From Opisthocomus hoazin (Eukaryota; Chordata; Aves; Opisthocomiformes; Opisthocomidae): a stretch of DNA of 64,000 nucleotides. The notes beneath the pieces were generated by a model. That model was not told the DNA's origin, searched no databases, and saw only the letters and a program-made list of their open reading frames with translations. The stretch spans positions 25,955,320 to 26,019,319 of the forward strand of contig NC_134428.1 of assembly GCF_030867145.1 (NCBI RefSeq), read 5' to 3'. This document shows, in pieces, positions 4,467-64,000 of the stretch; the first letter of the stretch is position 1, and each line of letters opens with the position of its first letter. Made by a program: the position numbers and the translations under genes.

Positions 4467-7400
4467 GTAACGAGCACCCTGCAGCCTTCCACAGCAGCTC
4501 TGCTCCCACATGTCACGTATGCGTGGAGTGTGGAGGGGAAGCGCTCCTCGGGGGATAAATGTGGAGAAAATCCTATAAGACAGGAAAACTACTGTGCGAC
4601 CATTGCTTTCCTTTACATATGGTTGATAGAATATTCCTGAAGTTCTTCGCCCGTGAGTCCTTTCGGGCATGCCTGCACCCACGCACACACTGCTCCTCTC
4701 AGGTTCCTCTTTAACTCCTCCTGCTGTTTCCAAAGCACTCCGGACAGCCCCGAGGCGCATGAAGAGCTATACACTGATTGACTTCTCCGAACTGGAGGCG
4801 ACGTCCCGGTCGCCTACAGACCAGTTTGCCAGCATAGCCACCGCCTCCCGGCACAGCAGCACAACCTCGGCCTGTCTGCTCGATGAGGAGCTGAATTCAC
4901 CAGGTTTGTGTGTGCAATTCAGTACAGCGTCGTCCTTGTTACTAGGGTTCGTGGTGTTACAGAAAGATAGGAGACCTCTGACTCTAATGTTGGTCCTAAG
5001 AGAAAGCAGACCCTTTCAGCCAGTGTCATAGGTTTTCAAGAATGTAGTTTCTTTAATGGTGTTAGACGGTAGTGAAACTGCTGTTAGACAGCAAAGAAAG
5101 AACCTATGGAAAACTCTTGTTTTCTGTAACTGATCTGTGGCATTCTGGCATCTTTCTTAGGTCTCAGTGACTCTCCTGTTGTACAGAAACCACCACCTGA
5201 TTTTGGCTTCACAGAGGTGAGTGATCCTCAGACACTTCAGTCCATAAAGTACACAGCGCAAAAATCAGACATGATTCTTGATTTAGCTTTCTCTGGCAGC
5301 CCTTTTTTACACCGCTCTGTTCTGAAGGGAAACTGTAATCCTCCTGCTCTGTAGTGAATTTCTCAGTTGCAGTCTGCAACCACATTAGTCATATTTATTT
5401 CTGTTTTAAGCAGGTTATTAAAAACAAGGTTCTTTTCAGTGGAACAGGTCTGATTTTTGGTGATGTTCTACAGCATGAACCAGAAGCATCTTATTTTTCA
5501 GACTGCTGCACACAACGGGTATAGTGAAATCGTAAGTGCTGTCCAAACGCTGGGACTGCAGGAGAGCTGGGAAGGCGGCTGTTCAGAGAAGAATGAATTT
5601 CAGGGCCTGGTTGATCAGCTCTCTCCACCATCCAGGACCAAGACATTATCCTTGTAAGCAAACTCTGCATGGTACAGTCTGACTTTGGAGATGAGGAATA
5701 CTGTTTTACAGCAGTGAGGCTCAGGAAAACCTTTCAGCTACGCCTGGTTAGTGATGGCGAGCTATCCGTCCGCGCCTCGCCTCTCAGGCAGCAGTTATGC
5801 ACCTGTTAATTGCACTTTGTGTAATTGCACAGCAGGACCTTCCAAGGGTCAGAAACTGAGAGAGACAAATACCATGGCTGAGTAACAAGGTGATCTTGAG
5901 CTAAAGGAACAAAAACCTTACAGTCAGGTCTTTTTATAATAACCTGCGACTCCAAAAATACTTTGCCCAGCTTTCTTCAGGCTGTGACAAAGTAGTTGCC
6001 AGCATTTGGTGGAAGCCCAACAGTTCGTGAACCAAATCAATCATCCACAGATCTTCAGAGCAGGTGACCATTACGATACGCTTATCCAGTCTGCCATAAT
6101 ACAATTTTAATAATAATACAGTTTTACTGGAGATTCCCAGCTTCTTGCATTGTTTTGAGCTACATCTTTAGTCTCACTAGCTAGAGCTCCAGAGAGTCTG
6201 TGCGTGGGGAGAGGAGACTTCCAAAGCCCTGGGGTGGTTTTGTGTTAGTAACAGAAATCAAGGTCTGCCTTAATGAATGCTGAAACAGCAGCTTCTTCCA
6301 TATAAAATAGAGACAGTTTTTGAATTTCTTAAGAACTCAGAGAGTGTAAGCTTGTTCTTTCTTTATACAAAAAGTGAGGAGGGATTGGGAACACGAAATG
6401 GACACAGCAGAAGGTGGTATACACCAAGGAGTCTCCCCAGTTAATATAAGCTTTCTACATGCTTTTCTTTCCAGGGAATTATCACCAATGAAATTGCCCT
6501 TTCCAGATCTTCCAAATAGCTCAATGGCAGATACTTCATTCTCCAACCTAGGCTACGAGCTGAAGCCTCCTGCCTCTTTGCATCCAGCCTCCCATGATGC
6601 TTCTCTAGAAAACCTTTTTGTCCCTTTAATTTCAATTACACCGAGTAAGTGCAATGATTTCTGTGCCCCAGCACTGCTTACTAGAGCTCTTCTGTGATTT
6701 TTGCAGGGGAGCAAGCCAAAGTAGCTTCATGCTGTGTGGGTTGGCTGGAGAAAAGTAATGACTGCTCTATGAAGGACTTAACGCATCTGAGACTTTGAGC
6801 AAGTGCTATGGATCGTACCATGGAAATGTCCTTGTGCTCCCTACCCAGTAGTCGGGAGCTTCCTGCCCTGGCTAACCTCGGAGATGTGCTTCTGTGCTGT
6901 TTGCCCTTAGCACCTTTAATCAAGGTTCAAGCAGTTCTCCAAAGGGTTAAAAGGCATCTATGGGTGGGAGTTGTCCCACTTCCTAAAGCAGAGCTGTTAT
7001 TTCCACCTCTGCTTTTCCATTCAACACTGTATGGCCCACCCCTGCGCTCGATGGGGTGTTAGCCTGGGTACAGAGCACCTCAGGGTCCCAGAGCAGGGCA
7101 CGTCCTCTTAAGAGGGCTGCAGAGCCTTGGCCATCGCTATTTTGGAAGAGGACAGGTGTAAAGACACTCTGACCTGACTGTCTTCTGACTTCAGTCTCTC
7201 AAGTGAGGGATTGACCAGATTTTGGAATGGCTGGATGGTGATACTGGTGTGGATTTGCCAGGCAACGGTGATAAGGGGCTAAGTCTCGTGTGTTTCAGAG
7301 AGTTGCATTTTGCTTTTCCTGTTGTATCTGTTGGATCCACACCTGACATCTCTAGCTGGCTGTTGAAGTCTGAGCTGCTAGATCTCCGGTTCAGACATTC

Positions 7401-8977
7401 AGATTCCTTTCTCCGCCTTGGAGGCGAAATGTGAATCACAGGCGGGTGCTGTATGCTGCTTGGTCTGTGAGTCTGCAAGTAAAAGCTGGTGTGCATGTTT
7501 CCTTTCTGCTGCTCCTCATCCTGTCCCTGCTGTTCTGCCCTCAGACGGGAGGGGAATCCACGCTTTGTTTCTGATTCTCCCTTTGTCTCTGGCAGGCAGT
7601 ATCTGTCCACTGACCGTGTACGACAGGAATGGTTTCAAGGCTATGCTCCACTTCTCCAGGGACCCGGCTCCTGGCCGACCAGATGTGCTGGTGATGGTTC
7701 TTTCCATGCTGAGCACATCAGCTCAGCCAATTAAGGACATAGCATTCCAGGCTGCAGTCCCAAAGGTGAGAAGCCTGTGACAGGTGGAGGAGTGTGGGAC
7801 TACTCAGAAATGTCCTGAGGAGAAGGTTCGCCATTTCTTGCTTAGGATTTGCCTTGCTCTTCGGAAGTTGCATGGCTCGCTTTCTCTGAACGTGAACCTG
7901 TTGTGTGCTGGTGCCTGTGGCCCCAGTGCCTGTTTCACATCATCCCTGGCCTTGAGAGACCCGGACAGGGCTCCGGGCACGCTGCTTTGGCCTCCCGGGT
8001 AAGGCACTCGCTCTGCCTGTGTATGTGCAGCACAGAATTCTCTATTTAGGAATATCTTTCTTTAGATGTAGGCTGTGGAAAGGCACGCACCTCATTAAAT
8101 GACAAAAGCTGGCTGACGTATCTTTAACCAGCTCTGTGCCTTTTTCAGCATAGGCCAAAAAGCATTCCTTTTGTTTTCTCTTTCAGACCATGAAAATAAA
8201 GTTACAGCCAGCGTCTGGCTCCGAGCTGCCTGCCTTCAGCCCTCTTCTCCCCCCCGTGGTTGTGTCCCAGGTCCTGCTGCTCGCCAATCCACACAAGGTG
8301 TGTGTGGTGACGGAGTCTGAGCGTCACTGTCGTGGCTGGGGTTTTTGTATGAAACACGGAGGGAGGGTTATTAGTGGGGAGATGCAGGGGAGAGCCAGAG
8401 CGATCTGGGCTGTGCTGGGAAGACCTCTTTACCACTGAAACACCGTTTCAGAGCTATGACCTGAAGGAGGGAATGGGGCAGTTGCTGCAGGGGCCTGTGC
8501 CTGCAGTGATGGCTCCTGGTAGACATTGCGCAGATGTCTGCAACTGGTGGAACGTGAGGCCACCCAAGGCAAAACCCTAACTCTGAGACTGAGGACTGGT
8601 GTAAGGAATCCTCTGTGACTGAGAAGGCTGGCCAGACCTGGATTGCCAAGCCTGCCCTTGGGCAGCTTGCACAGGTCTCCCAGTCCCTCCTTATACATCT
8701 TATGAATATCCAGGTCTTGCTCTGCGTGGAGCTTCCGCCTGGCTGAAGTGTTACTGTCCCCTTTCAGAGGGTGATTCGCTGTGGTGCGGCTGTGCGGGGT
8801 GAGGCTGAGGGGGCCCAGGAATCTGCAGCCGTGACGTGCGCCTCTCTCTGTTCCTTTCTCTCCCAGGACCCCATCCAGCTGAGATACAGACTAGCGTTCA
8901 CGCAAGGTGTGCAGCCCTTCAGGGAGGGGGGAGTGGTGACTGGCTTCCCCGAAGCGGAGCTCTGGGGCAGGAGCTGA
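567..8977 (+). CDS. GGA2: GGA2, Golgi-localised gamma-ear-containing ARF-binding adaptor (5' end outside window)
   Basis: Monomeric clathrin adaptor that sorts cargo such as mannose-6-phosphate receptors at the trans-Golgi network, recruited by ARF-GTP. Twelve exons keep one frame: 567-670, 1164-1244, 2067-2204, 3316-3397, 4347-4466, 4703-4903, 5161-5216, 5502-5653, 6475-6644, 7596-7765, 8187-8297 and 8867-8977, ending at TGA 8975-8977. All introns are GT-AG. The first exon starts with two bases of a split glycine codon, so the N-terminal VHS domain is missing here. Order is GAT domain, low-complexity hinge, GAE ear. I chose GGA2 over GGA1 or GGA3 mainly because COG7 follows immediately, as in human 16p12; hinge similarity alone would not separate the paralogues. 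The 498 codons in the window (stop included) plus an off-window VHS region imply a protein slightly longer than the roughly 610-residue human one. Confidence 0.93.
4703..6644 (+). CDS. GGA2: GGA2 hinge exons
   Basis: Four exons (4703-4903, 5161-5216, 5502-5653, 6475-6644) encode the Ser/Pro-rich unstructured hinge. It contains SYTLIDFSELE, which resembles a clathrin-box (LIDF), and CLLDEELNSPGLSD, which aligns with the internal dileucine region of GGA1 and GGA3. The hinge is the least conserved part of the family, so these exons rest mainly on frame continuity and splice consensus. The short 56-base exon is supported by matching phases on both sides. Confidence 0.82.
7596..8977 (+). CDS. GGA2: GGA2 GAE (gamma-adaptin ear) exons
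   Basis: Three exons encode the C-terminal immunoglobulin-like ear that binds accessory proteins through short acidic-phenylalanine motifs. Landmarks are LTVYDRNGFKAMLHFS, IAFQAAVPK joined to TMKIKLQPASGSELPAFSP, LLLANPHK joined to DPIQLRYRLAFTQG, and a short tail ending GRS before TGA. The joins at 7765/8187 and 8297/8867 fall between whole codons. Length (about 130 residues) fits a complete ear domain. Confidence 0.94.
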
Positions 8978-9320
8978 AGTTCAGCAGGCTTGGACATTGC
9001 CGTGTTGCCTTAGCGGTGGACAGGGAGGGACTGTGTGCCAGCAATGCTGGCCTGGACTCCATAACGGCTCCTTTCCTTGGGACCCGCCGTCTCCTCCTTC
9101 CTTTGGTTTCTGTGCAGGTGGCTGGCAGGAGGGATCTAAACTGGCTGCTTCGGCCACGGCCGCCTTCTGCAGCTGACGCGGCTTTACAGGACCCTGCTGC
9201 GGGGCCCTGCAGCCCGGGAGCCCTAATGCGTCTTCCACACAAGTGCTGTATCCCTGCTTCTGCTTTCTGGGCCGGCTTCCCTCTCTGCCGTTACCTTTGC
9301 TTTTTGGATTAAAAGAAGGC
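8978..9320 (+). other. GGA2: GGA2 3' UTR (predicted)
   Basis: The bases after the GGA2 stop contain no other gene. An ATTAAA signal at 9308-9313 is the first plausible polyadenylation hexamer, giving a 3' UTR of about 350 bases that ends just before the COG7 CpG island. Confidence 0.5.
9308..9313 (+). terminator. GGA2: Candidate GGA2 polyadenylation signal (ATTAAA)
   Basis: This is the common variant hexamer, about 330 bases after the stop codon. No AATAAA was seen earlier in the gap. Cleavage would fall roughly 500 bases before the COG7 start codon. Confidence 0.45.
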
Positions 9321-9827
9321 AAACCGCCCCCAGGAGTCAGCCCCTGCGCCAGACGGCCGGCCCGCCTCGGTGGTGGGGCCCGGGCCCACGGACGCGCAGG
9401 CCGCAGCACAACCGGGGCCGAGCCGGGCTGCCGGCGGCTCACAGGCACCGGCGCGGCGGGGAGCGCGGGGGCCGCGCTGCGGGGGCCGCCGCCACCGGGC
9501 CGGCCGCCCCTCCCCAGGCCCCGGTTCCCTCCGTGGCGCCCCGCGGGGCTCGGGGCGGGCCTGGGGCCTCTCCTCCCGCGCGGGGCCGGCGGAGAACCGG
9601 CCGGGAACAGGCAGCCTGCATAGCCCCGCGGCGGGCCGCGTCCCGGGGCCTCGGAGCCGCCGCCGGGCCCCGGGGCCTCCCACCAGGCCGCGGCGCTGGC
9701 GCCAGGCGCAGCGGGTACGGTGGCCGGGAGGGGCGGGGTGGCGCGGAGCGCTTCCGGGTGCGCGCCGGGGCCGGGGCCTGCCCGTCCCTCCCTCCCCGCG
9801 GGTGCCCGGCGGGGCCGGGGCGCGGCG

Positions 9828-29684
<19,857 letters not shown>

Positions 29685-34140: not shown

Positions 34141-34647
34141 CGTGGCGGCGAGCACAGCACCTCCCCTCCTTGCACCCCGCAGCCATCAGCCTCTGGCCCG
34201 CGCTGAACTGCGCCTGCTGCCAACAGGAAACTTACCGGCAACTTTTTAATTAATTTATTTATTGCCGAGAGTGGTACTGTGAAATGGCCTGGCACTTCCT
34301 CCCGGTGCCGGAGTCGTTACGGAGGCTGGAGGGTTTATCTCCCCCCCACATCGAACGGCTGTGCCCACCTGCGGGCGAGCCTGGACAGACCCCGAGCAGC
34401 AAACGCGAGCAGGGCACCCGCGGGCTGCGAAAGCAAAGGGCCGGGTTTCTGTCGCTCGCTTTCCACGGTAGCTGTTTAGAGGTGGAAACACTGCGACCTC
34501 CGGAGTCAGAAGTAGCTGGGGGCCCGAGCCCGGGGCCCGAGCCTCAGTGCAGCACCGCGGCAGCACGCGCTGTGCCGTGCCTCGGCGTCCGTCAGGCCAC
34601 GGCCCTGCAGCTGCCGTTGGGACACCGGGGCTTCTCCCCGTCACCAG

Positions 34648-35460
34648 GAGCCCTGCACGAGATCCCGGCCGCGGAGCCCTGCATGGGATCCCGGCCTCGG
34701 AGCCCTGCGTGGGATCCTGGCCGTGGAGCCCTGCACGGGATCCCGGCCTCGGCGCCCTGCATGGGATCCCGGCTGCGGAGCCCTGCGTGGGATCCCGGCC
34801 TCGGTGCCCTGCGTGGGATCCTGGCCGCGGAGCCCTGCACGGGATCCTGGCCTCGGAGCCCTGCACGGGATCCCGGCCTCGGCGCCCTGCATGGGATCCC
34901 GGCTGCGGAGCCCTGCGTGGGATCCCGGCCTCGGTGCCCTGCGTGGGATCCTGGCCGCGGAGCCCTGCACGGGATCCCGGCCTCGGCGCCCTGCGTGGGA
35001 TCCCGGCCTCGGCGCCCTGCGTGGGATCCTGGCCTCGGCGCCCTGCGTGGGATCCTGGCCTCGGCGCCCTGCGTGGGATCCCGGCCTCGGCGCCCTGCAC
35101 GGGATCCCGGCCTCGGCACCCTGCACGGGATCCCGGCCTCGGAGCCCTGCATGGGATCCCGGCCTCGGAGCCCTGCGTGGGATCCCGGCCTCGGGGCCCT
35201 GCATGGGATCCCGGCCTCGGAGCCCTGCGTGGGATCCCGGCCTCGGAGCCCTCGTGGGATCCTGGCCTCGGAGCCCTGCGTGGGATCCTGGCCTCGGAGC
35301 CCTGCGTGGGATCCCAGCCGCGGAGCCCTGCGTGGGATCCCGGCCTCGGAGCCCTGCGTGGGATCCTGGCCTCGGAGCCCTGCACGGGATCCCGGCCACG
35401 GAGCCCTGCGTGGGATCCCGGCCGCGGAGCCCTGCGTGGGATCCTGGCCGCGGAGCCCGG
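34648..35460. repeat. 26-bp minisatellite with BamHI site, about 31 copies
   Basis: Tandem 26-base units of the form GGAGCCCTGCGTGGGATCCC followed by GGCCTC. Almost every unit carries GGATCC. Variants mostly alternate at a few positions (GCAC, GCAT or GCGT; CCTCG or CCGCG), and one unit near 35250 is shortened. Because 26 is not a multiple of three and the unit has no stop, several frames on both strands stay open for 250-420 codons with a 26-residue periodicity. That is the signature of a non-coding array. Confidence 0.97.
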
Positions 35461-35821: not shown

Positions 35822-36187
35822 TCACTCGGGTTCGGCGTCGCTGTCGGGACCGAGGGCGTCGAGCGGCTGGACGCGCAGCGAGTCGTAGTTGGGCGGGGGG
35901 GTGCCGGGCTCGGGGGGCAGCGCCTCGTCCCGGGGGAGGGCACCCGCGTCCTCGTGCTGGAAGCCCAGGTTGGTGTGAGCCTCCACCAGCTCCGACACGG
36001 TCGGGGGCGCGTCCGGGTACCGCGCCTGCGCCCGCTTCTGCTTCAGGCCTTTGCACCAGCTGATGACGTTAATGACGGTGATCCACAGCGAGTCGATGAT
36101 GATTTCCCCGAACTCGATGAGGCACAGCACCGAGCCCCCCATCCAGAACCCGAACTGGCCTCCCAGGCTCGACAGCAGCCAGACGAT
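35822..36187 (-). CDS. SCNN1B: SCNN1B last exon: TM2, pore and PY motif
   Basis: 121 residues plus stop. They begin [20 protein letters not shown], the pre-TM2 and pore region containing the degenerin-site serine area and the GGS selectivity filter. [10 protein letters not shown] follows at the inner membrane face, then the conserved [12 protein letters not shown]. The PY motif PPPNYDSL (673-680) recruits NEDD4-family ubiquitin ligases for endocytosis; mutations here cause Liddle syndrome in humans. The tail ends in an acidic run. Confidence 0.97.
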
Positions 36188-39100
36188 CTGCGGGGAGGAG
36201 AGCGGAGTGAGCCAGGGCGGTGGGCTCCGGTCCCTGATCCACCCCCGCCGATCACCGCGGTGCTGGTGCCGCGCTGGGTGATGCCCTTCGTGCCCCCGGG
36301 ACCTGCCTGCCGAGCCCCTCGCCTTGCCGGTGCTGCTTCGCAGCGACCTGCCCCGCACCGCGGACATGAGAAGCGGCAGCGCCGAGGGGCTCGGCAGACT
36401 CCCAGTGAGGGGCATCTCCGGACGGGTCTGATCGGCCCCGTGGAGCTGCGCCCTGTTTCTGCGTCTGCTGGCCAGGCGCTTGCAGCGCGCGGTGGCACCG
36501 AGCGGCGCGGGTGGGCACTCACCGTCGTGGCGGCGGACTCCGAGATGGTGCGGTAGTTGTACTCCTGGAAGTAAATGTTGAGCTTGATGATCCCGTTCCT
36601 GTAAGGGAGAGAGGGCAGCTCAGCACAGAGCCGGGCTGCGGGCACCCCACGCCTCTGCTCCGACTCCTGCCCGCGGGGAGGGCTCCTGCCCAGCCGGAGC
36701 TGCTCATGAGCGTCACAGAATCACAGAATGGTAGGGGTTGGAAGGGACCTCTGTGGGTCATCTAGTCCAACCCTCCTGCCGAAGCAGGGTCACCCAGAGC
36801 AGGCTGCACAGGACCTTGTCCAGGCAGGTCTTGAATATCTCCAGAGAAGGAGACTCCACAACCTCCCTGGGCAGCCTGTTCCAGTGCTCCGTCACCCTCA
36901 GAGGGAAGAAGTTCTTCCTCATCTTCAGCTGGAACTTCCTGTGCCTCAGTTTGTGCCCATTGCCCCTTGTCCACTGGGACTTCTGCCGGGCACGTGGGAG
37001 AAGTTAAAAGTGCCACTGGCTGCGAAGGGAAGAGAGGCGGTTCTGGAGTTCCTCCTGAAGAACCACCTGGGCACCTGGAAGCTCCTTTGGGGCTGTTTGC
37101 TTTGTCTTGCCAAGTGCCCTGGTTGGTCTCAAAGGGCCATCACCCCTCCTCGGTGCCCTGCACCTCGTGTTCCCGAGTGCCCGCGCGGAGCAGCTGCGTC
37201 ACGAATGACCGCGTTACAGGGGCGTAAGGTGTACAGATCCGCCAGCATCTGTGCAGCCATTTCCTGCTTCCCCAGGGGGTTTTGCCTTGGGGAAAAAACC
37301 TCCTTCTTTCCCCCTAATTCAGGGTTGAGGTTGTCAAAGGGTAACTCAGCAGTTACCCCAATTTTGGTGCATCCCCGACTGCTGCTGGCAGGTTCAGAGA
37401 TGTCAGCACGAAGGGATGAACGTTACGATCCAGGAGCTGTGGACCCTGGCGCTCGTAGCTTCAGAGCTTCCAGGCTCCTGTGTGCAAACTGTTAGGAGGA
37501 CTGCAGTTAACGTTGATTTTAACTTCACTCACGTTGGTCTGACCTGGTTTGTCACTGCCGAGAGCGGAGGATCCGCACGAGGGGCATTTCAGATTTGCTT
37601 TGTGTACCTTCCAGGCAAACATGTGCCAGATCTTGTCCTCCCTTTGCATCAGCACACGTGCGCTCTGGCCCATCGCCAAGGCTGGTGTTAATCTAACGTT
37701 AACAGGCTCGGTAGAGAAGATAAAGTGGCTGTTCCTTTCGCTTACCTGTCCAGAGTCACATTTGTTGACATATCTCTTTCATAAGACAGAATATGGAAAA
37801 TCCAGTCCTAGGAAAACACAGTTTGTTCAGAACCGGGCAGAAGCATCCTCTCTGGGTGCCTGCGGGGCAGGACCCGAGGGAGCCGCAGGACCCCCGGGGA
37901 GGAGGGGCTGCCGGGGGGGTGTCCCTCCCCCCCGCCCATGCCCCCGCACTAGGGTTTGTCTGCGCGCTGGGAATGCGTGAGTGAGCAGAGAGGCACTTGC
38001 TGCTCTGGAAATGCTGAGTGACTCAGGTGGCTGGGGACAGGTAGTTATTAGTGAACGTTTCAAAACAAGGAACCGGTGTTACCTCCGAGGCCTCGGACGG
38101 CCAGTCCGCCATGGAGATGGTCATCTTGTACTGGGTGTCGCTGGGGAGGGGAAAGGAGAACATTGCTCAGAAGCGTGCCCTCCTCTGAAGTCACTGGAAC
38201 TTCAGTTCCCATGCAGGAAAGCAGCCTCGCTTGATTTGCTGCCATTTCAGAGAGGTCGGAAGTCATGGGAGACGAAATGCAGGATCCCCTCCACCGTCAC
38301 AGCTGCCAGAAACGGCGTGTGTACTTACTTGCACGTTTCCTTACAAGAGTCAATACAAATCTGTCTGTGTTTTATACTCGATCTCAGTGAGGAATAGCAA
38401 TATGCTGTTTGGTGAAAACAAAAAATCAAAGCATCTGTTTAGATAAGGACCCCACTTACTGGCTTATATCAGTTTCACGTAATAAAATAAATATTTAGGT
38501 GCTGCCTTCCCCTCTAACCTTCCTTTCCTCGAGAAGCTTGGGCAAAGCGGTCAGACCATATAACAATAAATTCAAAATAAACTTCAGTTTTCTGCAGGCA
38601 GTTTCTAGGAGCCAGCTCGCCCGACGTCAGTGGGTTTGGCACAGCCCTGGCCAGCTGCCGGGGGCACCGGTGCTGCCGGGCTCTGTCCGGCCGTGGCGGA
38701 GCACCGACCCCCCGGGTCCTTGCAGCAGCCCCTTGCCCCTGCTGCACACACCTTGTCTCTGGGCTCTGCGGGCGCGGAGGCCTGGAGCATTGCCCCTTTT
38801 CCTCTTCCTTGCGTACCCAGAGGCTCCCGTTGCCTCCCCGGCCGGAGCCAGCCCTGCCCCGGGTCAGCGCGGGGCCCGAGGCCCGCGGCCAGGGCCGAGG
38901 TTTCCCCCCTTTTCCCCGGCACTGACCCAACGGCCGCGGGGACATTGGACACAGGCAAAAGCCATTCCGCTCCCGTCCCTCCTGCGTGCCGGCACGCCGG
39001 GCAGGCTCTGCAGCTGGCTTTGTTCGTGTGCTTACCCCAACCCGGGTTATCTTCGTTATTGCAGTAATTCACCCCTTCGGGCAGAGGAAACATATAGTGC

Positions 39101-42100
39101 CCACATCCACAGAGTTCGACCATGTCATTCTGGAAGCAAGAGCGCAGGCAAGCCTGGAAAGAGGGAAGAGGGAGCTGCTCAGACGTGGGCTGCAGCCCCT
39201 GCCCGCCTCGGTGCTGCCGGCGGCTGCGCGGCTCTGCGGCGTTTGCTCCCTCTGGCACTGGGCAGCTGACGGGGGCCGCGCACGGGGAAGGCCGAAGCGG
39301 CAGAGCCCGAGTCCGTCCCCGCGCAACAGCACGATCCCGTCCTCCAGCGCCCGCCGAGCATCGCCTGGCGGGCTCTGGCAGCCGGCACACGTGGCACTGC
39401 CGACGGCGAGACGAGGTGGGCGGATGAGCTGCCGCCTGCAGAGCTGCGCTGCAGGTACCGGGTTTAGGATGCTCAGGTGTTCGGGGACATCCCGGCTGTG
39501 CGCTGCCCCTGGGTCAGCCACCTCGCAGGAGCAGCGGGAACTCAGTTTCTGCTTCCAGTCGCGCAAGAAACTGCTCATTTCTTAACTATTTAGGGCTTCG
39601 CGGAAGTAATACAGAGTTTCCAAGAAGGGATAAAAACGTTCTGCGACACCCATAGACGCTGCTGTTGTCTCCAGGCTTTGTACTGACAAAGGGCTGGCTT
39701 CCACTTTAAAGCTGGGACTCTAAAAATACTTCAGCATAAAGAGCAGGTTCTAGAAATCTGAATTATCTTATCTGTGCATCTGCTGCTCTCCGCGAAAGGA
39801 CTGCAGCCGCCGCTCGGGCAGCGTGCGAGCCGGGCTGCAGCGCTGCCGTGAGCTCAGCGAGGCATGACGTTAATCACCCGAGACCGGAGCGGGGTTCTGG
39901 ACGAAACGGTGCACAAAGCAATAACAAACTCTGAGAGAAGATAATTAAATTTAACAGCTCCAGCTAGGCAGAGCGACCAGAGAATTTCTGTGCGACACAA
40001 AGCGCTTACAAAGTTCACTGCAGTCAGGGAGCGAGGGGAAGGTCTGATGCTGCTGAGAGGTCTCTGAAGTGACGTGAATTATGCGGACGCAGAACCCCGG
40101 TCAGCGTTCAGCAACATTTAAGTAATAATGCAATCATTTCAAGCATTTGCTTAAACGCTATACAAGCATCTTAAAAAACAGGGCAAAGTGGTCCAATCGT
40201 TGGAGTTACATAAAGGCAGAAATATGAAACCACCCGTGCTGGAGCAAAGCCCTCCCGCTGGCCTGGGGTGTATTCTGCAGGCTTTGGTAAATCACCCCCA
40301 AAATGGTTTTGCTCTTTTCCTTATTGCCAGATCTCGCCCTCCAGAAATGCTTCTGCCTTATGTTATAGCCTGTTACAAATTAACCAGTGCTTAATGTTTA
40401 CACTGTATTTTCCTACAGATTCAAGGGTTACAAACACTCGACTTTCTCATCCCGATTTTAAAGTGAAGAAAAGGCAAAGGTCTGTCTGCATTTCCTATAC
40501 AAAACAAGCAGGCATTTTCAGGCTGAAAAATGGCTTCATTCCCATAAAGAGAAAAGGATTAGAAAGAGTAGGAGCGTCCAGGAGAGGAGTCCCCTCCTCG
40601 CAGGGTGACCATTACCTGCGCACACGGCATCGGAGCTGCTCTGCCCGTGAGCGCGATGCCGCGGCGGCAGCCCGGAGCACGGCAGCTGCCCGGAGAGCTT
40701 CCACCCTGCCAGAGCTGCCCGGGCCCAGCCGCAGGAGCTCCCGTGGCCGTCGCAGCAGCGGTGACGGCGGCAGAGGCAGCTGTGGTGGCTGCTCGGTAAC
40801 CCCCGGGCAGCACAGGGACCGTGGTGGGCTGCAGAGCTGCTCCCGCGGGAGCCTCGAGGGGTTCAGCAAGGCCACGCGCGAGGTCCTGCCCACGGGTCGG
40901 GGCAGTGCCCAGCACAGACACCGGCTGGGTGGAGAACGGACCGAGAGCAGCCCTGAGGAGAAGGACTTGGGGTGCTGGGGGACCAGAAGCTCAGCATGAC
41001 CCAGCAGTGTGCACTGCCAGCCCCAAAAGCCAACCGTGCCCCGGGCTGCATCTCCAGCAGCGTGGGCACGGGGTGAGGGGGGGATTCTGCCCCTCTGCCC
41101 CACTCTGCTGAGACCCCCCGGGAGTCCCGCGCCCAGCTCCGGAGCCCTCAGCACAGGACAGAGCTGGAGCTGTGGGAGCGGGGCCAGAGGAGGCCCCAGC
41201 AATGATCCGAGGGCTGGAACCCCTCTGCTGGGAGGAGAGGCTGGGAGAGCTGGGGCTGCTCAGCCTGGGGAGGAGAAGGCACCGGGGAGACCTCAGAGCA
41301 GCTGCCAGGGCCTGGAGGGGCTGCGAGAGAGCTGGAGAGGGGCTGGGACAAGGGCAGGGGGTGACGGGACGAGGGGTGATGGCTTTAGACTGAAAGTGGG
41401 CAGATTTAGGTTAAATATAAGAAAGAAATTCTTCCCCGTGAGGGTGGTGAAACACTGGCCCAGGTTCCCCAGAGGAGCTGGGGCTGCCCCCTCCCCGGCA
41501 GGGCTCAAGGCCAGGCTGGACGGGACTGGGAGCACCCTGGGCTGGGGGAAGGGGTCCCTGCCCAGGGCAGGGGGGTGGAAAGAGGTGTTGTGTAAGGTCC
41601 CTTCCAACCCAACGCGTTCTGTGATTCTACAACTCGAGGTTAGCCTGACGGCGTGGGGAACGACTAGACTCTACCCCTTGCTGGTTGAGCTGCCTGTAGT
41701 TAAAAGGTTCCAGCCAAGCATGAAAATTGTAGAGAAGAAAGATATTCTCACAGCTGCAAAAGAAATTAATTGCCTTAACAACATGGCTTGAGCAGTTATT
41801 CTTTTTAAAGGGGAAAATCTGCTCTGCAGCCTCCTGCGGCCGCGGTGGGCAGCCGGCAGAGCAGCGTCGGGTCCCCGGGGAGGACGGGCAGCTCCGCGCT
41901 CCCAACCGGACGCTCGGGAAGAGATATTTTCCTGGTGTTCCCTACGTTACTAAGGAACTGGCATTAGCCAAAGCTGTTGGGAGTTTCAGCCCGTTTCAGA
42001 TGCTCTGCCCTGCACCTAAGGAAGGGGCTGGGGCTCAGTGGTCCCCAGCTCCCCAGGGAGCGAGGCCAGGTGGGATGGGAGCCCGAGGTCTCCTTGGCCG

Positions 42101-45100
42101 ACGCTGCGGTTCTGCCGTCCGAGCCGAGGCAGTAACTGACTGGTGTGAGACGGCAGCCGGGGCTGCTCGGGGAGCCCGAAGGGGAGGAAACTGCAGAACC
42201 GGGGGTTCTTAAGGGCCCGAGGGGCCCAGGCAATCCCTGCTGTCACTCTGTTTGCTTTGCAGGGTGAGCGGGAACCGTCGGCTCTGGGGAGCCGAGCCCG
42301 GAGGTGGCAGGGTGCAAGGAGGGACCAGCATTAAACTGCGCTCCTGTCTGGAGGTAAAAATGTTTGCGTTTTTGTTGGGCAGTTAGCACATGGCAGGGTC
42401 CCGTTAACAGCAGAGATCCCGGGGGCTTCGCTGTGGTTTGGCTTTTGAGAAAATTACAGAAATGACCGTTTTCATCTCTCTCAAAATGAAACAAACTTCA
42501 TGCCTGGATAAGGGAACAAGACCTGCTGATGCCCTTTCCTGGGTGTAGGAGCTGTTTCAGTGCGAGAATGAAAACTGAACATTACACTGCACTGTGCTGC
42601 CTGCCAGAGCAAAGTTCCTGATCTTCTGATGCCAGTTTTAGTACCCGCATCATCAGATCTGGCTCCTGCAAGACACAGTGATTTCCACTGGATCCACGGG
42701 GATCGTTTCCAAGCCTGGGGCTACGGAGTGCTCAGACAGAGTGCTGGTTTACTACCAGAGAAGAAGGTTTAGGTTTTGCTTTCTGCTTTATCATTGCTGA
42801 CACTGCAGTAGTCCTGCATGCTAGTCAAAGATTTTAACTGCTTCGATGATTTTTCCTAAACAGCCTCGTTTGATTTAAAAACGTGTTTTACCTGTATGGA
42901 ATAGGAAGTATTATACTGGCTGTAGAGATTTTTGACGGGGACATCAGACCCGTTCATGGTGCAGTCACTGTAGGGATAGCCCATCCGTTCCAGCTCGTCC
43001 TGAAAGAAAACCCAAACAGCACACTTCAGCGGTCATCGCTCCTCCCCAGATCCCTGGTGCCCATGTTCTAGAGACTCTGTCATTCCTGTATTCCCTGCTG
43101 GCTTTGGAAAAAATCAGAGCACGGTGGGCGGCAGAGCTGAAGGAGATGCAGCCCGTTCCCAGGGCCGCTGGAGGCAGATGAGGGTGTTCAAGAGCAGCAT
43201 GTTTTAGCAAGGCACCTTCTGACATGCCAAAGGAAGAGGGAACAATGACCTGAGCTCAATATTTTGGCTTCAATAAAGCACTTTGCCAGGACAGTTACAT
43301 AAAAGTCTCCATAAACTGATCCAGCCCACAGCTAGCGTATACCTTGACCCTTTTGGTTTGAGCCAGTTCAGCCAAGACTTAAAACAAACTTGGTTGCAGT
43401 CCCATCAGATAACATTATTCTCAGACAATCTGCTCCAGAGGAATGCCACACATACCACTAACACGCCGATGGAGGTTTCCGTCCCGGCCATTGCATAGAT
43501 GCCCTGGTCCTTAAGGAAGGGGAAGCTCTTCTGTTGGTGCAGCATGAGCCTGGCCCCGGCAGCGGACGACAGGTAGGGGATATAGTCCTGCTGGCTGATG
43601 TCCAGAATTAGCTTCAGCCCTGGGACAGCAGACAAAGCACTCAGAACAAGAACCGTACCGAAATGCGAGTCTTTGGAAGAAAACAGAGGCTGCTTTCTTC
43701 TCGCTGTGCACAGGCATCTCTGTTCCTTGGGGAAGAGCTGGGGCCTGGCTGTCACAGCAGCCCTGCGTGGGCACAGATACGCACGACGGTGAATGCACAG
43801 GGTGGAAATGTCTGGGTGAACGTTCAGACATTGCCTCAGATATTTCAGCTATCCAGATGTTACCCTTCTGCTACGTGCAACAGCTGGATCATACTGTGAC
43901 ACATCTCCCTTTTGGGAGCTTACGCCCTGCTGGAAAGCCGCTCCTCCCTGCTGCAGAGCTCCAGCGACACGGGAATTGTCACCCTGGGATATCGGACAGA
44001 AATGGCCGCTGAGAGACAGAGTAACCCCCAGCACTGCTGCTGCTTCGGCTCCTTCCTCAGCAGAGATCTCTCTTACCAAACTCGGCTCCAGGGTTGGAAG
44101 AATTCAAAGCCTCTTCGTCCATGCCCCAGTTAAAGATGTAGCAGTTACCGTGGTCTGGGTGATAGATTTGGGTGAAATTCCTGGAAGAATCATGCACATA
44201 AGACTGTGACTCTCGGGGAGGACTAAAGGGTTATAGAATAATACATCTGGTGGGACCGGTACTTGGTGGTTAGGTCTGGGATTCACTTTAAATTGCGTCG
44301 TTTGCTGAATGCCTGTATAGAAATTTCAGCTGATATAATTTCAATCAATCTGCTGCTGAAAAAAAGAGCAAAGCAAGGTACGGGTGTGTGCTGTGACACA
44401 GCCGCTGGGAATAACGCTTTGTCGGAGTGCAGAGGAGTCGTTTGTCACACAGATGAGACAGGAATAATTGCTCGATCCGAGCTGTGGTAACGGGTTTTGG
44501 CTGGTGCTGTAGCTCATTCTTTGATACCAATTCTCTGTTGCCCTCTTTGCAGAAGGGGCGTTGCAGAAGGGCAGGACTCCGTGCAGCCCCGGGTGCTGCT
44601 CTGCGCCCACGTTTCTCCAAACTGGATAGAGAAGTTTGGCGTTCACAAGAAACAACGGTGGCTAAAAAGCATTTCTCAGAGCCTTGTGTGAAAAGAGGAG
44701 GGGCTGTAACCGGGGGCCGCACTGCTGTGCCGGGCACGCGGCCTCAGCACCTGGCTGGCAGCGCGGCATCACCAAATGCCCTGGGCAGCTCTCATGGGTG
44801 CTGTTAGTCTGGATGTGTCCAAAACTAAAACTCAAGCCAGCACTATCCCAAAATGACCTGTTTCAGCCAGGATCACATCCAGAAACGCTCTGGGAGATGC
44901 TGTTAGCGTTAAGGACCAGCAGAAGTCTCTTTATTAACTGATACATACCTTAAAAAGAGAAAAGAAAAAGGCTGCCATGCCTTTAGCATCCTGTACCGTT
45001 CCTGGTGTGACAGAATAGGGCAGGGAGCTCTGTGTGCACCTACTTGTAGTTGCAGGGCTCGGCCCCATAGAGACAGGCCAGGATCATGTCTTCGGCCTGG

Positions 45101-47619
45101 TAGCCCATCCTGATTCTCTCCTGCAGTGGCACTTTGGAGAGGATGCTGGTGGACTGCAGGATGTACCACTCGGTCACCGCCTGCGCCGCGCTGGTGAAGT
45201 TCCGGTAGGTGCAGTTGTCGGAGCCCTGATGGCTGCACTGGGGACACAACGCAGGCAGGTGGGACCCCCATCCTGGCGGGACGTGTGCCGTGCCCCCTCC
45301 CCACGCGCTCGGCTCGATGCTGGCCCAGCTGCTCCCGGGGAACGGAGGAGGCGCGGCCAGATGGGAGCTGTGGTCACATCTGCATGTGCTTACAGTTGGG
45401 TCCCTCCCCAGGGAGGTTTCCCAGCTGGGCAGATTCTCCATCGGCCTCTCCCCCCATGGCAGAGCGGCCGCAGGCAGCTGGTGGGGAAGAGACGCCAATC
45501 TCCACGCCGCATCCCTGCTGAGGCACCCAGCGCTGCCCGTCCCTCCCCGGCTGCCTCCCGTGGGACCCCCCTCACCAGCTTCACTGCCAGCTTGTACTTC
45601 TTCTCCTCCGATGTCATGTTGGCTGGGGCAGGTGGAGTAGCCGTTTGGTTGTCCTCAGACGTTTGGTTGCCGTCAGCCGTTTGGTTGCCTGCAGAGGCTT
45701 GGCTGTCCTCAGCCGTTTGGTTGTCCTGAGCCGTTTGGCTGTCCTCAGATGTTTGGTTGCCTGCAGAGGCTTGGCTGTCCTCAGCTGTTCGGTTGCCCGC
45801 AGCCGTTTGGTTTGCCCCAGCAGCCTGGTTGCTCTCAAAGATGTCCAGGATGACGGGGTTGTCTTTGTCGTGCTCGTCGATGAGCACCAGGGGTATCTGG
45901 TGCCAGAGCTGCAGGTCGAGCGGTGGGGACGTGTTCTCGCTGCTGTTGCCCGGTGTGGGCTGCAGGATCCTCTCCAGCGCCGCTTCGATGAGCCTGTCCA
46001 GCTCTTTCAGCAGATGCTTCACCTCTGAGTACCTGCGGGACAAAGCGCAGTTACCGGGCCGTGTCGAGGCGGTGGGGACGTGCAGCAGCTCGTCTGCCGC
46101 TCCGCTGGCCTGGGGACCTCAGGCTGCTGCCCAAGGGTTTACTGGAGGACGGCGGGAGCCTCTGTGCAGAGCACGGAGCTCAGACACGGGCATCCCAGCA
46201 GCTGCGACCGGGCGGAAAACCAGCGGGAGGGTAAGCAGAGTGCTGCGGTGGTGACCCTGCCCGCGCAGAACCGATGTGGGTGCATTTCAGTAATTCACTG
46301 TAGTTTACACAAAACACCTCTAGCAAGCAAGGAGAGAAAACCACCCCGAAGTAATTCCTGTGTGTTGGCTGAGAGCATCTTGCCTTGGGCTACACTGTTG
46401 CACGGATACAAGTGTAAAGCAACAGAAATGAGTTACTGCTTTGAAATTACGATCGAGTTCTGTCACTGCAGCTCCCGGCCAGTGCTGCTGTTTAAGCAGC
46501 CCTTAATGGCCGGAGCGTAAGCGATAAGAGGTGCGTTCACGGCGAGGAAGGAGAACGAAGGGAATTGTGGCAAAAGATCAAGAGACTGCTTTTGTTTGCG
46601 ACAAGTGAGTTGACCTTTGAGTTTCCCCTGAGCCAGGGAAAGTTTTCAGGGAGGCAATAACCATCCTCAGGTTAGCTGGCACAGTGAGGAGGAACAGGCA
46701 GCCTCACAGGCACACGGACCCTGCTCTGGACCCGAGCTGTCTGCCTGCTCATAGTTCTCATTTCATAGAATCACAGAATCATAGAAAGTTTTGGGTCGGA
46801 AGGGACCCCCAGAGGTCATCTAGTCCAACCCCCCCGCAGCGAGCAGGGACACCGCTAACTAGATCAGGGTGCTCAGAGCCCTGTCCAACCTGGTCTTGAA
46901 TGTTTCCAGGGATGGGGCCTCCACTGCCTCTCTGGGCAACCCGTTCCAGTGTTTCATCACCCTCATTGTAAAGAATTTCTTCCTTCTATCCAGCCTAAAC
47001 CTACCCTGTTTTAGTTTAAAACCATCACCCCTCGTCCTGTCACTGCTGTCTCTGCTAAAAAGATTGTCCCCACCTTTCCTATGGGCTCCCTGTAAGTACT
47101 GAAAGGCTGCAGTCAGGTCTCCCTGCAGCCTTCTCTTCTCCAGGCTGAAATGGTTGGCTTTGGCGCTCCTTGGTGAGCCCAAGGCTCATTTCCATGGATG
47201 CTCCTCGCGCGATACCTGGGGCAGGAGCAGACCCGCAGTGCCTTATGCCAGCAGCGTAACTGAGGGTGCTAAAGCGCGGCGGGGTAAATTAGGCAAAGAA
47301 AAACTTACTTGAAAGGGCTGGCATTGCAGACCGTGACTGCTGGGAACTTCATGGTCTTAAAGCCAATGGAGAGCGATGACGTGACGTTGTAGGAGAGGTA
47401 GGTGTTGATGAGGATGCCCCACTGCCAGAAGACCAGAGACGCAAAGAGCAGCGTTAGGAAGAACCACATAAATTTCTTCTTGGGCCCCTCTTTGATGATG
47501 CGCTTCGGGCCGTGGGTGTTGGTGTTGTCGCAGTACCAGACCAGCAGCTCCTTGTAGGTGTAGCCAGGGCCCTTCTGCAGGCGGTGCAGCGCCCGGACGA
47601 AGTACTTCTTCAGGTTCAT
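35822..47619 (-). CDS. SCNN1B: SCNN1B, epithelial sodium channel beta subunit
   Basis: Beta subunit of the amiloride-sensitive ENaC channel, which brings Na+ across the apical membrane of kidney, gut and lung epithelia. Twelve coding exons on the minus strand: 47619-47309, 46032-45576, 45237-45044, 44180-44077, 43619-43456, 42999-42892, 39153-39036, 38404-38329, 38140-38083, 37807-37746, 36598-36523 and 36187-35822. They total 2094 bases, 697 residues; human is about 640. Phases and GT-AG sites all agree. Order: cytoplasmic N-terminus with the HG gating motif (His36-Gly37), TM1 about 51-71, large extracellular domain with Cys-rich thumb, TM2 from about 577 with the G-G-S filter (593-595), cytoplasmic tail with PY motif. 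The extra length comes mainly from the exon 3 repeat. Introns hold three CR1 fragments, one each in introns 2, 7 and 11, counting the predicted non-coding exon as exon 1. Confidence 0.96.
36713..36978 (-). mobile_element. CR1 LINE 3' fragment, minus orientation, SCNN1B intron 11
   Basis: It starts CGTCACAGAATCACAGAATG, then GTAGGGGTTGGAAGGGACCT, and ends near CCCCTTGTCC. It is in the same orientation as SCNN1B and lies between the exons at 37746 and 36598. It is nearly the same as the copies at 11938 and 53427. Confidence 0.93.
40858..41634 (+). mobile_element. CR1 LINE 3' fragment, about 780 bp, plus orientation
   Basis: The longest CR1 piece here. It covers the end of the reverse transcriptase reading frame and the 3' UTR, with CCTGAGGAGAAGGACTTGGG near the start, GGCTGGGAGAGCTGGGGCTG, GGTGATGGCTTTAGACTGAA and the tail CTTCCAACCCAACGCGTTCT before GTGATTCT. 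The reading frame is broken by deletions and stops. It lies antisense to SCNN1B in intron 7. Confidence 0.93.
45576..46032 (-). CDS. SCNN1B: SCNN1B exon 3, expanded extracellular finger exon
   Basis: Encodes residues 105-256, starting [14 protein letters not shown] and including the conserved [13 protein letters not shown]. From residue 178 it departs from the mammalian pattern: ten hexapeptide units, then [14 protein letters not shown], before rejoining at YKLAVKL. At 152 residues it is about 60 longer than the human exon by my recollection of that protein. The splice sites (cag|G at 46033/46032; CTG|gtgagg at 45576/45575) are sound and the frame is open throughout, so it looks like a functional coding expansion. 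Confidence 0.93.
45633..45812 (-). repeat. SCNN1B: 18-bp coding repeat, 10 units, SCNN1B exon 3
   Basis: Ten 18-base units encode the hexapeptide pattern [N/S]-[Q/R]-[T/A]-[A/S]-x-[D/G] (residues 178-237; the last unit is degenerate). Seven units begin with an N-x-T glycosylation sequon and three begin with Ser. A 72-base higher-order copy is visible: the stretch near 45688-45719 recurs near 45759-45790 with at most a few changes, pointing to recent duplication of four-unit blocks. Confidence 0.95.
46763..47170 (-). mobile_element. CR1 LINE 3' fragment, minus orientation, SCNN1B intron 2
   Basis: Inverted CR1 tail TCATAGAATCACAGAATCAT, then GGGTCGGAAGGGACCC and TAGTCCAACCCCCC. It extends about 400 bases to CAGGCTGAAATGGTTGGC. 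It belongs to a different subfamily from the three short copies: it keeps the TTTCTTCCTTCTATCCAGCC segment. Confidence 0.92.
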
Positions 47620-53250: not shown

Positions 53251-53426
53251 CTGCTGCTGACCCTGCCCCCCCCTCTAACCAAGCCCACCGGACATGGGCA
53301 GCGTGGAGACAGCGGCACAAACCCGCTGCGCAAGGTGCCGAGGGCCTTCTGCCTCCGTCCCGCTGCTGAGAGATGAGCACCCGTCCTTTTTTTTCCCCCA
53401 AAAAAAATCAGAAGAAAAATCCCCTA

Positions 53427-53780
53427 TCAGAATCATAGAATCCCAGCATGGTGGGGTTGGCAGGGACCTCTGTGGGTCACCCAGCCCAACCCCCTGCCCA
53501 AGCAGGGTCACCCAGAGCAGGGGGCACAGCACCGCGGCCAGGCGGGGCTGGAATATCTCCAGAGAAGGAGACTCCACAGCCTCCCTGGGCAGCCTGGGCC
53601 AGGGCTCCGTCACCCTCAGAGGGAAGAAGTTCTTCCTCGGGTTCAGCTGGAGCTTCCTCGGCTTCAGTTTGTGCCCGTTGCCCCTTGTCCTGTCGCTGGG
53701 CACCACTGGAAAGAGTCTGGCCCCGTCCTCCTGACACCCACCCTGTAGATATTTATAAGCAGTTATAAGCTCCCCAGCAT
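53427..53780 (-). mobile_element. CR1 LINE 3' fragment, minus orientation, upstream of SCNN1B
   Basis: TCAGAATCATAGAATCCCAG, GGTGGGGTTGGCAGGGACCT and CACCCAGCCCAACCCC mark the inverted 3' end. It extends about 350 bases to TATAAGCTCCCCAGCATGG. It lies just beyond the predicted SCNN1B first exon and matches the 11938 and 36713 copies closely. Confidence 0.92.
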
Positions 53781-56700
53781 GGTGGGTGCAGGGGAAGGAG
53801 CGTGGGGGTCGTGGCTGGGCTGCGGGTGGTCGCTTGGGGGGTGCGGGGGGACCAGGTCTCACGGCAGGACCAGGTCTCGTGGCCGCTGTGCCGACCCCTG
53901 TGCTGCAGCAGCTCCCGGTCTGGTCAGACACGTCCCAGGCACCAGGACATCACCTCCTGCTTTGGCTTCCCTCGTGCCAACTGTCACGCGCGGCAAGGCT
54001 TTGACGCTGGGTCAATGCCTGCAGGTCAGCTGCACCGGTGCTTTGAAACAGTTTCATAATCTTTCTCTTAAAAGATCTTACAATCTTTTTTTTTGAAGAA
54101 ATGTATGGTCTTCTAATTGTTTTTTGCCCCCAGAAAAAGCCTCCCCGAGCAGGGCGTGCGTGCTCTCCTGGCAGCGCGCTGTGCGCCGTGCGCCCGTCCA
54201 CTGTGGGCGACGGAAGATGTCGGTGCTCAAACGCAAGGGCCCGGGCTCTGCCTCGGCGGCACCGGCAGGTGGGTCTGCACGGGGACGGTCTCTTGCCAGG
54301 AGAAATGGCAGCGAAACCGAAAGATGAATCAGCTCTGCTGTTTGCATCTGAGGGTGGAAGGCGAGCGGCTCGGACGGGGCCGTGCGCCCGCATGAACGTG
54401 CTTGTAGCCCGCTTGGCTGCGGTTCTCATGGTGCTGGGCACGCGCTTTTGCACGCTATGACTTCATCTCACACACCGATTGCTGTTGACCCCACAATTAA
54501 TCCCTCAGGGGGGCTGGGGAGATGCACCCCCCCCTCCATTTATTTTCTGTATTTTCCTACCCTGGGGCCGGCGCACTGCACGCCGTGGGGTGGCAGCCCC
54601 GAACCCAGCGCTGCTGCACAGACTCGGCTTGGAGGTAAAACCCTGAGCATCTCGAGCGGCTGCGGGAGACGCCGGCTCCTCACAACAGAACAGTAAACGT
54701 GTATAAACCTCCGTGGAGCTATAAATCACCGCGGCGCAGCAAAGCATTGTAAAAGGCAACGATTGCCTCTTGCTAGGAAGAGTAATCACAGGTTCTTGTT
54801 CGATCAGGACGTGGCCAGACTTTCCCAAATGTCCCCGTGTTTCGTTGTTCGGGAACAAAAGGGATTTTTATTTTTAAATTGCACAAGTGTACCTCCTGCC
54901 ATTATGTCGGGAGCGGAATGCGGGATTGTGTTTAAAGAGTGTTTCCAAGGGAAGCTAGACCGAACAGGTTTGGTGGCGAGCACTAGGACTCACCTGGTTT
55001 CTAACCTCTGTCCTGTCAAAATAATTGCCCCGCTATCGCTGCCGATTTCCCCGGAGAACAATGTCTGCGACCAGCACTGGCAGCTCCAGCGCTGGACATG
55101 GAGCTGGCTGCACTTGTTCGGGGTTTGAAACATCAGCTGCGACGCCCGCGGAGCCGAATGACCTTGAGTTTGGCCTGACTTTGCGTTGCCGCTCTCATCT
55201 GCTGCAGGAGAAAGTTTATTTTATAAGCAAAAGCCTCCTGCTAAAAATACAGCTGAAAAACACCGTGGAAAGCCCTGCTGCAGCCCAGGCTTTGTGCTGC
55301 GCGTCGGGGTGTCGTGCTGGCGCGAGGCACCGCTGCCAGCAGCTAAATACAGCTGAGAAACCGGGCACAGGGGCCAGCCAGCCCCGACAACGGCACCGGC
55401 CGTCTCCTCTGCGGTGTTTTGGAAATATCAGCTGGGCCTAAATTTACCTGGCAAAACGAAAATATTTCAGTGGTGACTGGGGTGAAGGCAAAGAAGGCTG
55501 AAAAGGTTTCTGGGCTGGTTTTTAGGCCTGTACGTAAGGACGAAGAGGAGCGAAGGTGTTTGTGCTGGAGCCCAGTGCAGAGACCCAAGGACAGCTCCGC
55601 AGGGAGGAAATCGCCCCAAAATTACAACTCTGTTGGGAGAAGTGAGCTCAGGTCACCGAAGAAACATCTGGCTTGTTCACACCTGGTTCTGTGTAAATCT
55701 GCGCTGCTTTTGGCCGAATTCTGGCGTTCGGCGGGGCGGGGGTGGGTGAGGTCCCGGTGCGGGGTCCCAGCCCGGCACAGCCGTGGTGGCAGCCGTCAGA
55801 CCCGAGCTCTCGGGGAATTCATGAGGATTTGGGAAGGCTCCGTGGGCTCAGGAACGGGAGGGCAGCGGTGCTGTGGCTTTGCCGTCCCGCGTCGCCTGCC
55901 TGGCCTCTGCCGTGGTCCCCTCCCCGGGGCAGGAGCTGCGAGGTGGTCGAGCTAAATCCCAGTCACGCCGGCAGCCCTGCTGCCAGGGCAGCATGCCGGG
56001 CCCCCGCGCCATCGCTCGCCCGCGCCGGCGGCCAGCGCGCAGCCCCGGCAGCTCCTGCTCCGCGCTGCCGAGGGAAGCCGGGCATCACCCGTTCCCGTGC
56101 AGGGCGCAAACAGGCTCATTCAGCCCGGTAATTGCGGGGTTTATCAGGTGCACTTTCAGAGACACGCTGTCACTAAACAAAATAGAGTAATTTAGTTGTG
56201 ACCAGTAAAATCAGTCGAATGATAGCGAGCATCTCGCCAGCCAACCTATACCGGTAACCGCTGCGTATAAAACCTTTTTAACTGACCTGTGTTTGCGTTA
56301 CAAAGATCAGGCAGTAAAACCCGGACTGGTTTTGTTTTACAAGCAGCAGCCGAGGGAGGGACGCGGCCCCCTGGGCCCGGCGCAGCCGCCCTGGCACGGC
56401 GCGGTCAGCCGGCGGCCATGGGCTGCCGCAGAGGGGCTCGGCCGTGCCGGCGTGGCCGGGCTGCGGGCACCGCGGCTGCGGGCACCCTGCGAGCTAAGCT
56501 GCAGGCCCCAGCGCGGGAGGCGTGCGGCAAACCCCGCTCGGGCACATGGACACCACCGATCACCGACCCTCGACTTGCCCCGCCGCGGCGGGCGGCACGG
56601 GGCAGGCGCTGGGCACGGGGCTGCGGCGGGCTGTGGGCTCAGGGAGTGGGTAGGGTGCTCAGGGCCCCGCTCCGTGGCTAACTGGCGTGACTGGGAATCG

Positions 56701-60858: not shown

Positions 60859-61018
60859 TGTGACGGGACATGTGGTGGTGGGACGCGTGGTGACGGGACG
60901 CGTGGTGACGGGACGCATGGCAGTGGGATGCGTGGTGACGGGATGCATGGTGACAGGACGCGTGGCGGTGGGACGCGTGGCAGTGGGACGCATGGCGGCG
61001 GGACGCGTGGCGGCTGCC
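60859..61018. repeat. 15-bp minisatellite, about 10 copies
   Basis: Units of the form GTGACGGGACGCGTG (variants GCAGTGGGACGCATG and GCGGTGGGACGCGTG). The period is a multiple of three, so both strands read open; the minus strand gives a His/Ser/Arg-rich periodic peptide. It is about 1.2 kb beyond the SCNN1G polyadenylation site. Unit-to-unit changes are mostly C/T and A/G. Confidence 0.92.
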
Positions 61019-63630: not shown

Positions 63631-64000
63631 TCAGTGCTGCCCAGCCTCCAGCGTGTCGGGCAGCTGCTCGGTGAAGGCAGCCTCTAGCCGCAAAGTGCTG
63701 TAATTGGGGGGGGGAGTCCTGGGCAGGGGGCTGTCCTGGGGCAGCGGCAGGCGCAGGGCGGTGTTGAAGGTGGGCAGGTCCTCGTCCATGCAGACCGGGT
63801 TATCGTGGCCCTGCCTCTCCGGATCCCCAGCCTGGGGGGGCTTCCCCAACCGCTCCTGCTGTCGGTGGTTCCACCACCTCTTCGCCTTCTGCCACTGGCG
63901 CCGCATGACGATGGAGAGCGAGTCGATGAAGAAGACCTCGACGATCTCAATGACGCAAACGACTGAGCAGCTCATCCAAAGGCCCAGCTGGCCTCCGAAG
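63631..64000 (-). CDS. SCNN1G: SCNN1G last exon, epithelial sodium channel gamma subunit (5' part outside window)
   Basis: Gamma subunit of ENaC. The window edge cuts the exon inside the pore region, so the reading begins FGGQLGLWMSCSVVCVIEIV, with the S-C-S selectivity filter. The inner TM2 end and RRQWQKAKRWW at the membrane face follow. The tail carries DEDLPTFNTALRL and the PY motif PPPNYSTLRLE, the NEDD4-family binding site, and ends at TGA 63633-63631. About 123 codons are visible including the stop. It is in the same orientation as SCNN1B and lies upstream of it, as in other tetrapods. Confidence 0.95.
   Translation of the reverse strand, partial: FGGQLGLWMSCSVVCVIEIVEVFFIDSLSIVMRRQWQKAKRWWNHRQQERLGKPPQAGDPERQGHDNPVCMDEDLPTFNTALRLPLPQDSPLPRTPPPNYSTLRLEAAFTEQLPDTLEAGQH

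Follow-up and report, generated by a model that had tools for sequence, protein, structure and literature searches.

What does a sequon-rich tandem repeat inside a conserved ion channel gene represent: a glycan feature kept by selection, or a minisatellite that the protein tolerates? The question arises in a 64,000-nucleotide stretch of the genome of the hoazin, Opisthocomus hoazin (the window), where a sequence-only reading had placed such a repeat in SCNN1B, the gene coding for beta-ENaC. That reading pictured a dense glycan collar able to shield the channel or alter its mechanical or protease gating.

The identity of the gene was examined at several levels. A tblastn search with the human beta sequence matched the minus strand from 47619 to about 35831. 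In the gene model all 11 introns were of the GT-AG type, and the joined frame of 697 residues contained no internal stop codon. The Pfam ASC profile (PF00858) covered residues 29–604 (E=2.2e-109; profile positions 1–454 of 455), and 431 of 634 aligned residues were identical to a working human beta sequence. The gene, frame and extracellular position given by the sequence-only reading are right. Nine PDB sequences were matched, the top three being beta-ENaC; for the repeat exon plus the next exon the best E values were 1.6e-40 (beta), 1.3e-13 (gamma), 4.2e-06 (alpha) and 7.4e-05 (delta). These values, together with the tblastn match, rule out a gamma-ENaC gene mislabelled as beta, while a pseudogene is ruled out because each of the 12 coding exons is intact, as are the splice sites. 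The forward primer for chicken SCNN1B given in an excerpt of PMC3851161 matched the exon preceding the repeat exon at 22 of 23 bases; the reverse primer, which that paper places in the next exon, matched the window coding sequence at 13 of 20 bases at best. The forward-primer match marks this SCNN1B as closely related to known bird genes, and it appears to be the bird beta-ENaC gene.

The window also contains a GGA-type gene and COG7 (plus strand; 1143–10172), followed by SCNN1B and SCNN1G (minus strand; 35822–63999), an order of neighbours that we take to be the same on human 16p12. Pfam matches placed the COG7 start near 9.8 kb and a GGA_N-GAT region near 1.2 kb; a GAT match near 4.3 kb was below the cut-off (17.8 versus 31 bits), as was the match for SCNN1G, whose last coding stretch was located by tblastn at 63999–63652 on the minus strand. 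Open frames at 53275–53949 (minus strand; no Pfam match) and 41000–41791 (plus strand) encode retroelement-like peptides, presumably remnants of the CR1-type elements common in birds. Rfam (gathering thresholds) and tRNA scans of the 64-kb window found nothing. Among other tandem arrays reported by TRF were a 26-bp array of about 31 copies at 34647–35458, the near edge of which lies some 360 bases past the stop codon of SCNN1B, a 53-bp array just downstream of the stretch coding for the COG7 N-terminus (11.3 copies, 94% matches; 10142–10745), and, in the interval that separates SCNN1G from SCNN1B, a 15-bp array whose higher-order period is 45 bp (60860–61014).

The features of the SCNN1B repeat are collected in Table 1. 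TRF detected a period of 18 at 45639–45812 and a period of 72 at 45639–45832. The array had earlier been placed at 45633..45812; it is real, and the ten in-frame units at 45818–45639 represent it in a different register. The count of seven N-x-T sequons also held: seven of the ten units carry one (N178, 184, 196, 208, 220, 226 and 232), always N-Q-T or N-R-T, and in the other three S replaces N (S-Q-A or S-Q-T). The tandem in-frame array is not due to chance; the best identity at a lag of 18 over 162 exon bases was 0.735, compared with a mean of 0.347 and a maximum of 0.432 in 300 codon-shuffled exons. Shuffling the 60 repeat residues never produced seven or more sequons (0 of 10,000; mean 1.7), although this excess is a by-product of repetition and not independent evidence. 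The 72-base block duplication proposed earlier was recovered as well, and similarity between units peaked at a spacing of four (mean 0.852, versus means between 0.722 and 0.764 for all other spacings up to 8). The growth that had been called recent can be called so in a relative sense only, in that units four apart, i.e. one 72-bp period, are the most alike. As to the repeat being a known domain, a PDB search found no match at E values up to 1, and the sole Pfam match, to the Gp5_C repeat (E=0.29), was rejected at 11.8 bits against a cut-off of 20.4. The array is a real, in-frame, sequon-rich coding minisatellite.

Table 1. Coordinates of SCNN1B and of the repeat features within it (positions in the window)
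Feature	Position	Strand	Remarks
SCNN1B (beta-ENaC), complete coding region	35822..47619	-	12 coding exons, 697 aa
Second coding exon: alpha1 helix region, P1, P2, expanded loop and start of P3	45576..46032	-	457 nt; from alignment to human, domain names as in an excerpt of PMC6197857
Ten 18-bp units, GANQTA...EDNQTA, residues 176–235, seven N-x-T sequons	45639..45818	-	In frame; TRF
First copy of the 72-bp block (units 3–6)	45711..45782	-	Comparison with units 7–10
Second copy of the 72-bp block (units 7–10)	45639..45710	-	65/72 identical to units 3–6
Degenerate edge unit ESNQAA, without sequon	45819..45836	-	13/18 to the consensus
Possible degenerate edge unit PANMTS, sequon N242, after a TPPA spacer	45609..45626	-	12/18 to the best-matching unit

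The array may continue into a degenerate unit at each edge. The score of PANMTS was the best of 43 offsets compared with all the units and the consensus; as a background for both edge units, the scores of 611 other in-frame 18-mers from the coding sequence peaked at 11/18. Degenerate edges suggest an array older than its central blocks, a point that would suit an ancestral or widespread trait in which birds generally carry a variable repeat in this loop, the hoazin sequence being one allele of a common coding VNTR. The close relationship to known bird genes indicated by the 22/23 forward-primer match (PMC3851161, excerpt) fits the same idea. However, a thin check of the literature, covering titles and the opening lines of abstracts, found no tandem repeat described in avian SCNN1B, in itself a weak point against it, and overall we regard a widespread avian trait as improbable.

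Whether the repeat reaches the mature protein depends on splicing and on the assembly. The second coding exon is flanked by AG and GT and the coding sequence is open across it, so the earlier statement that its frame and splice sites are intact stands; that it is an SCNN1B exon also stands, although it is the second coding exon here and the label 'exon 3' presupposes a non-coding first exon. The repeat might be removed as an exitron, since it contains 13 AG dinucleotides and since a GT near the start of the exon (46022) has a donor score of 2.6, above that of the weakest real donor. Donor scores were obtained with an approximate matrix, and on this scale the 11 real SCNN1B donors range from 1.9 to 7.1. 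A splice from 46022 into the repeat, however, would also delete alpha1 and P1, and the GT sites lying between alpha1 and the repeat (45930, 45887 and 45854; scores of -8.7, -2.4 and -7.5) all fall below every real donor; the GT within the repeat (45660) scores -4.5. Alternatively, the copy number might be an assembly artefact, an error known from tandem repeats (PMC6868369, excerpt), but the units are non-identical and so do not represent one stretch copied exactly. Absence of the repeat from the mature protein, by either route, is very improbable.

Where the repeat lies in the channel could be specified by comparison with the human subunit. In human ENaC, the alpha1 and alpha2 helices flank the GRIP domain, which contains strands P1 to P4 (PMC6197857, excerpt). 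In the alignment of the window protein with human beta all four strands were recognisable, P1 and P2 before the insertion and P3 and P4 after it, the strand limits being our assignment from that alignment and from the description in the excerpt. The 'finger region near proteolysis' of the sequence-only reading was right in being extracellular; more precisely, the site is the loop that joins P2 and P3 in the GRIP domain of beta. This loop has 81 residues in the window protein (170–250), compared with 22 in human beta (168–189). Sixteen of the human beta extracellular cysteines each had a match in the alignment; the other two, C184 and C189, had no counterpart, and there is no cysteine between C98 and C257 of the window protein (for C184 and the central part of the human loop, the working human beta sequence was used). 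By elimination, the human C184-C189 pair would be the extra, ninth disulfide of beta, a bond described for beta only in the excerpted account of the human ENaC structure. The P3-P4 cysteine pair is kept (C257 and C265 for human C196-C203), and a C257-C265 disulfide would be expected in the window protein.

The composition of the P2-P3 loop (2 of 81 residues are V, I, L, M, F, W or Y; 13 are acidic and 3 basic) suggests an exposed, flexible chain. An AlphaFold2 model of the exon alone gave a mean pLDDT of 48.5 and a pTM of 0.19, values too low to bear on its structure. Sequons also vary elsewhere in the exon (46032–45576). In the alpha1-P1 linker (residues 133–139) they are NSS and NTS, where those of human beta are NAT, NFS and NHT. 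Read in frame, the chicken reverse primer of PMC3851161 (excerpt) suggests a linker of LNNSNAT. The linker sequons differ between species, and sequon turnover is therefore not confined to the repeat.

The second protease site of alpha and gamma ENaC probably lies at the place that matches the insertion, following P2. The beta GRIP domain, according to the excerpt of PMC6197857, has no known proteolytic gating, which leaves the proposal that the repeat alters protease gating of beta itself unsupported. An alternative is a selected tether or shield, in which dense N-glycans on the beta GRIP loop would couple the channel to extracellular matrix or cover the gamma GRIP domain and so alter the response to shear or proteases. 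NXS sites were skipped more often than NXT sites by the cotranslational enzyme in SHBG, and the sites that STT3A passes over include closely spaced NXS sites (PMC4750078, excerpt). Since all seven repeat sites are NXT, several of the N-Q/R-T sites are probably glycosylated. A structural paper (PMC9701220, excerpt) makes the case that efficient processing is possible at closely spaced sites; taken with PMC4750078, occupancy could go either way.

In delta ENaC, added N-glycosylation motifs raised the shear response, with matrix dependence seen for the N292/487 construct (PMC7958617, excerpt). This gives the earlier shear idea an engineered precedent, but position matters: in the same excerpt alpha N232, 293 and 397 and delta N166, 211 and 384 had no effect, and its authors concluded that glycans must occupy certain positions. 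Because alpha Gly225 and Thr240 are placed on P3-P4 in an excerpt of another ENaC paper, alpha N232 would lie in the P3-P4 loop of the GRIP domain, and its lack of effect argues against a simple GRIP tether.

The divergence of the units bears on the same alternative. Among the 45 unit pairs pN was 0.23 and pS 0.28, and the two 72-bp blocks differ by six nonsynonymous changes and one synonymous change. This divergence shows no clear protein-level constraint, a reading that concerns ten non-independent units of one sequence. Amino-acid differences among the pairs were fewer at sequon codons 3, 4 and 5 (21, 9 and 16) than at codons 1, 2 and 6 (36, 29 and 24), which, with N-x-T kept in seven of ten units, favours the tether or shield and leaves room for weak selection for glycosylation. 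Random mutation of the consensus, however, retained a mean of 4.7 sequons (P 0.10 for the seven of ten retained; a crude model, with non-independent units), and selection for sequon retention is not claimed. With Asn missing from three of the ten units and a clear purifying signal absent, the glycan collar is unproven, and a selected tether or shield seems unlikely, if less so than the widespread trait considered above.

The best explanation, to which we give a probability of roughly 0.6, is a coding minisatellite that has enlarged a tolerant, exposed loop, with little constraint on its sequence and with any effect on gating being secondary. An 18-bp minisatellite would have arisen in the part of SCNN1B that codes for the turn between P2 and P3 in the GRIP domain and grown by duplication of units and of the 72-bp block, giving ten clear units plus degenerate edges. 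With a unit length divisible by three and an exposed loop, its growth would have been tolerated. The product would be a beta subunit in which an acidic, very hydrophilic and probably unstructured loop of 81 residues replaces the disulfide-stapled loop of the human type, and probable N-glycans at several repeat sites would add bulk near the beta-gamma interface. TRF listed 13 rows, or 11 distinct arrays, over the 64-kb window; a local tendency to form minisatellites would be a sufficient cause of the repeat.

If the enlarged loop is expressed and glycosylated, it would offer a test of why beta-ENaC retains a GRIP domain without known protease gating and of whether mechanical gating can be altered by N-glycans that lie elsewhere than on the palm and knuckle. 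The amount of additional glycosylated chain that the P2-P3 loop can accommodate would also become apparent, and the human beta-specific disulfide would be dispensable in at least one bird. More speculatively, and with little probability in our estimate, the coding VNTR might determine how many N-glycans lie at the beta-gamma interface and thereby tune the shear or protease sensitivity of ENaC between alleles or species; such a variable glycan arm would amount to a dose series, supplied by nature, for channel gating that depends on glycans. If the expansion of the loop is simply tolerated, it would still be a clear case of glycosylation motifs multiplied by a minisatellite in a conserved channel.

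Among known systems, the closest is human beta-ENaC itself (PDB 6BQN, 6WTH and 9BLR). It is the same subunit, and TM1, alpha1, P1, P2, the P3-P4 cysteine pair and the downstream domains align; the differences lie in the human 22-residue P2-P3 loop with its C184/C189 pair, absent from the 81-residue loop of the window protein, and in the total of sequons, 20 in the window protein versus 11 in human beta (the excerpted structure paper also predicts 11). The protease-sensitive GRIP segments of alpha and gamma ENaC resemble the hoazin loop in that their P1 to P3 region is disordered in the human maps, as far as these are described in excerpt. Unlike them, the window SCNN1B protein has no furin-type R-x-x-R site, and beta has no known protease gating. 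The engineered delta ENaC of PMC7958617 (excerpt) likewise bears extra N-glycosylation motifs on the extracellular domain; these, however, are one or two sites made by mutagenesis that mimic the alpha palm and knuckle, whereas the hoazin sites belong to a natural repeat in the beta GRIP domain. Finally, vertebrate coding minisatellites (VNTRs) typically have a period divisible by three, units that are imperfect copies, block duplication of higher order and degenerate edges. The window array shares all four traits but differs in that its unit encodes an N-glycosylation sequon.
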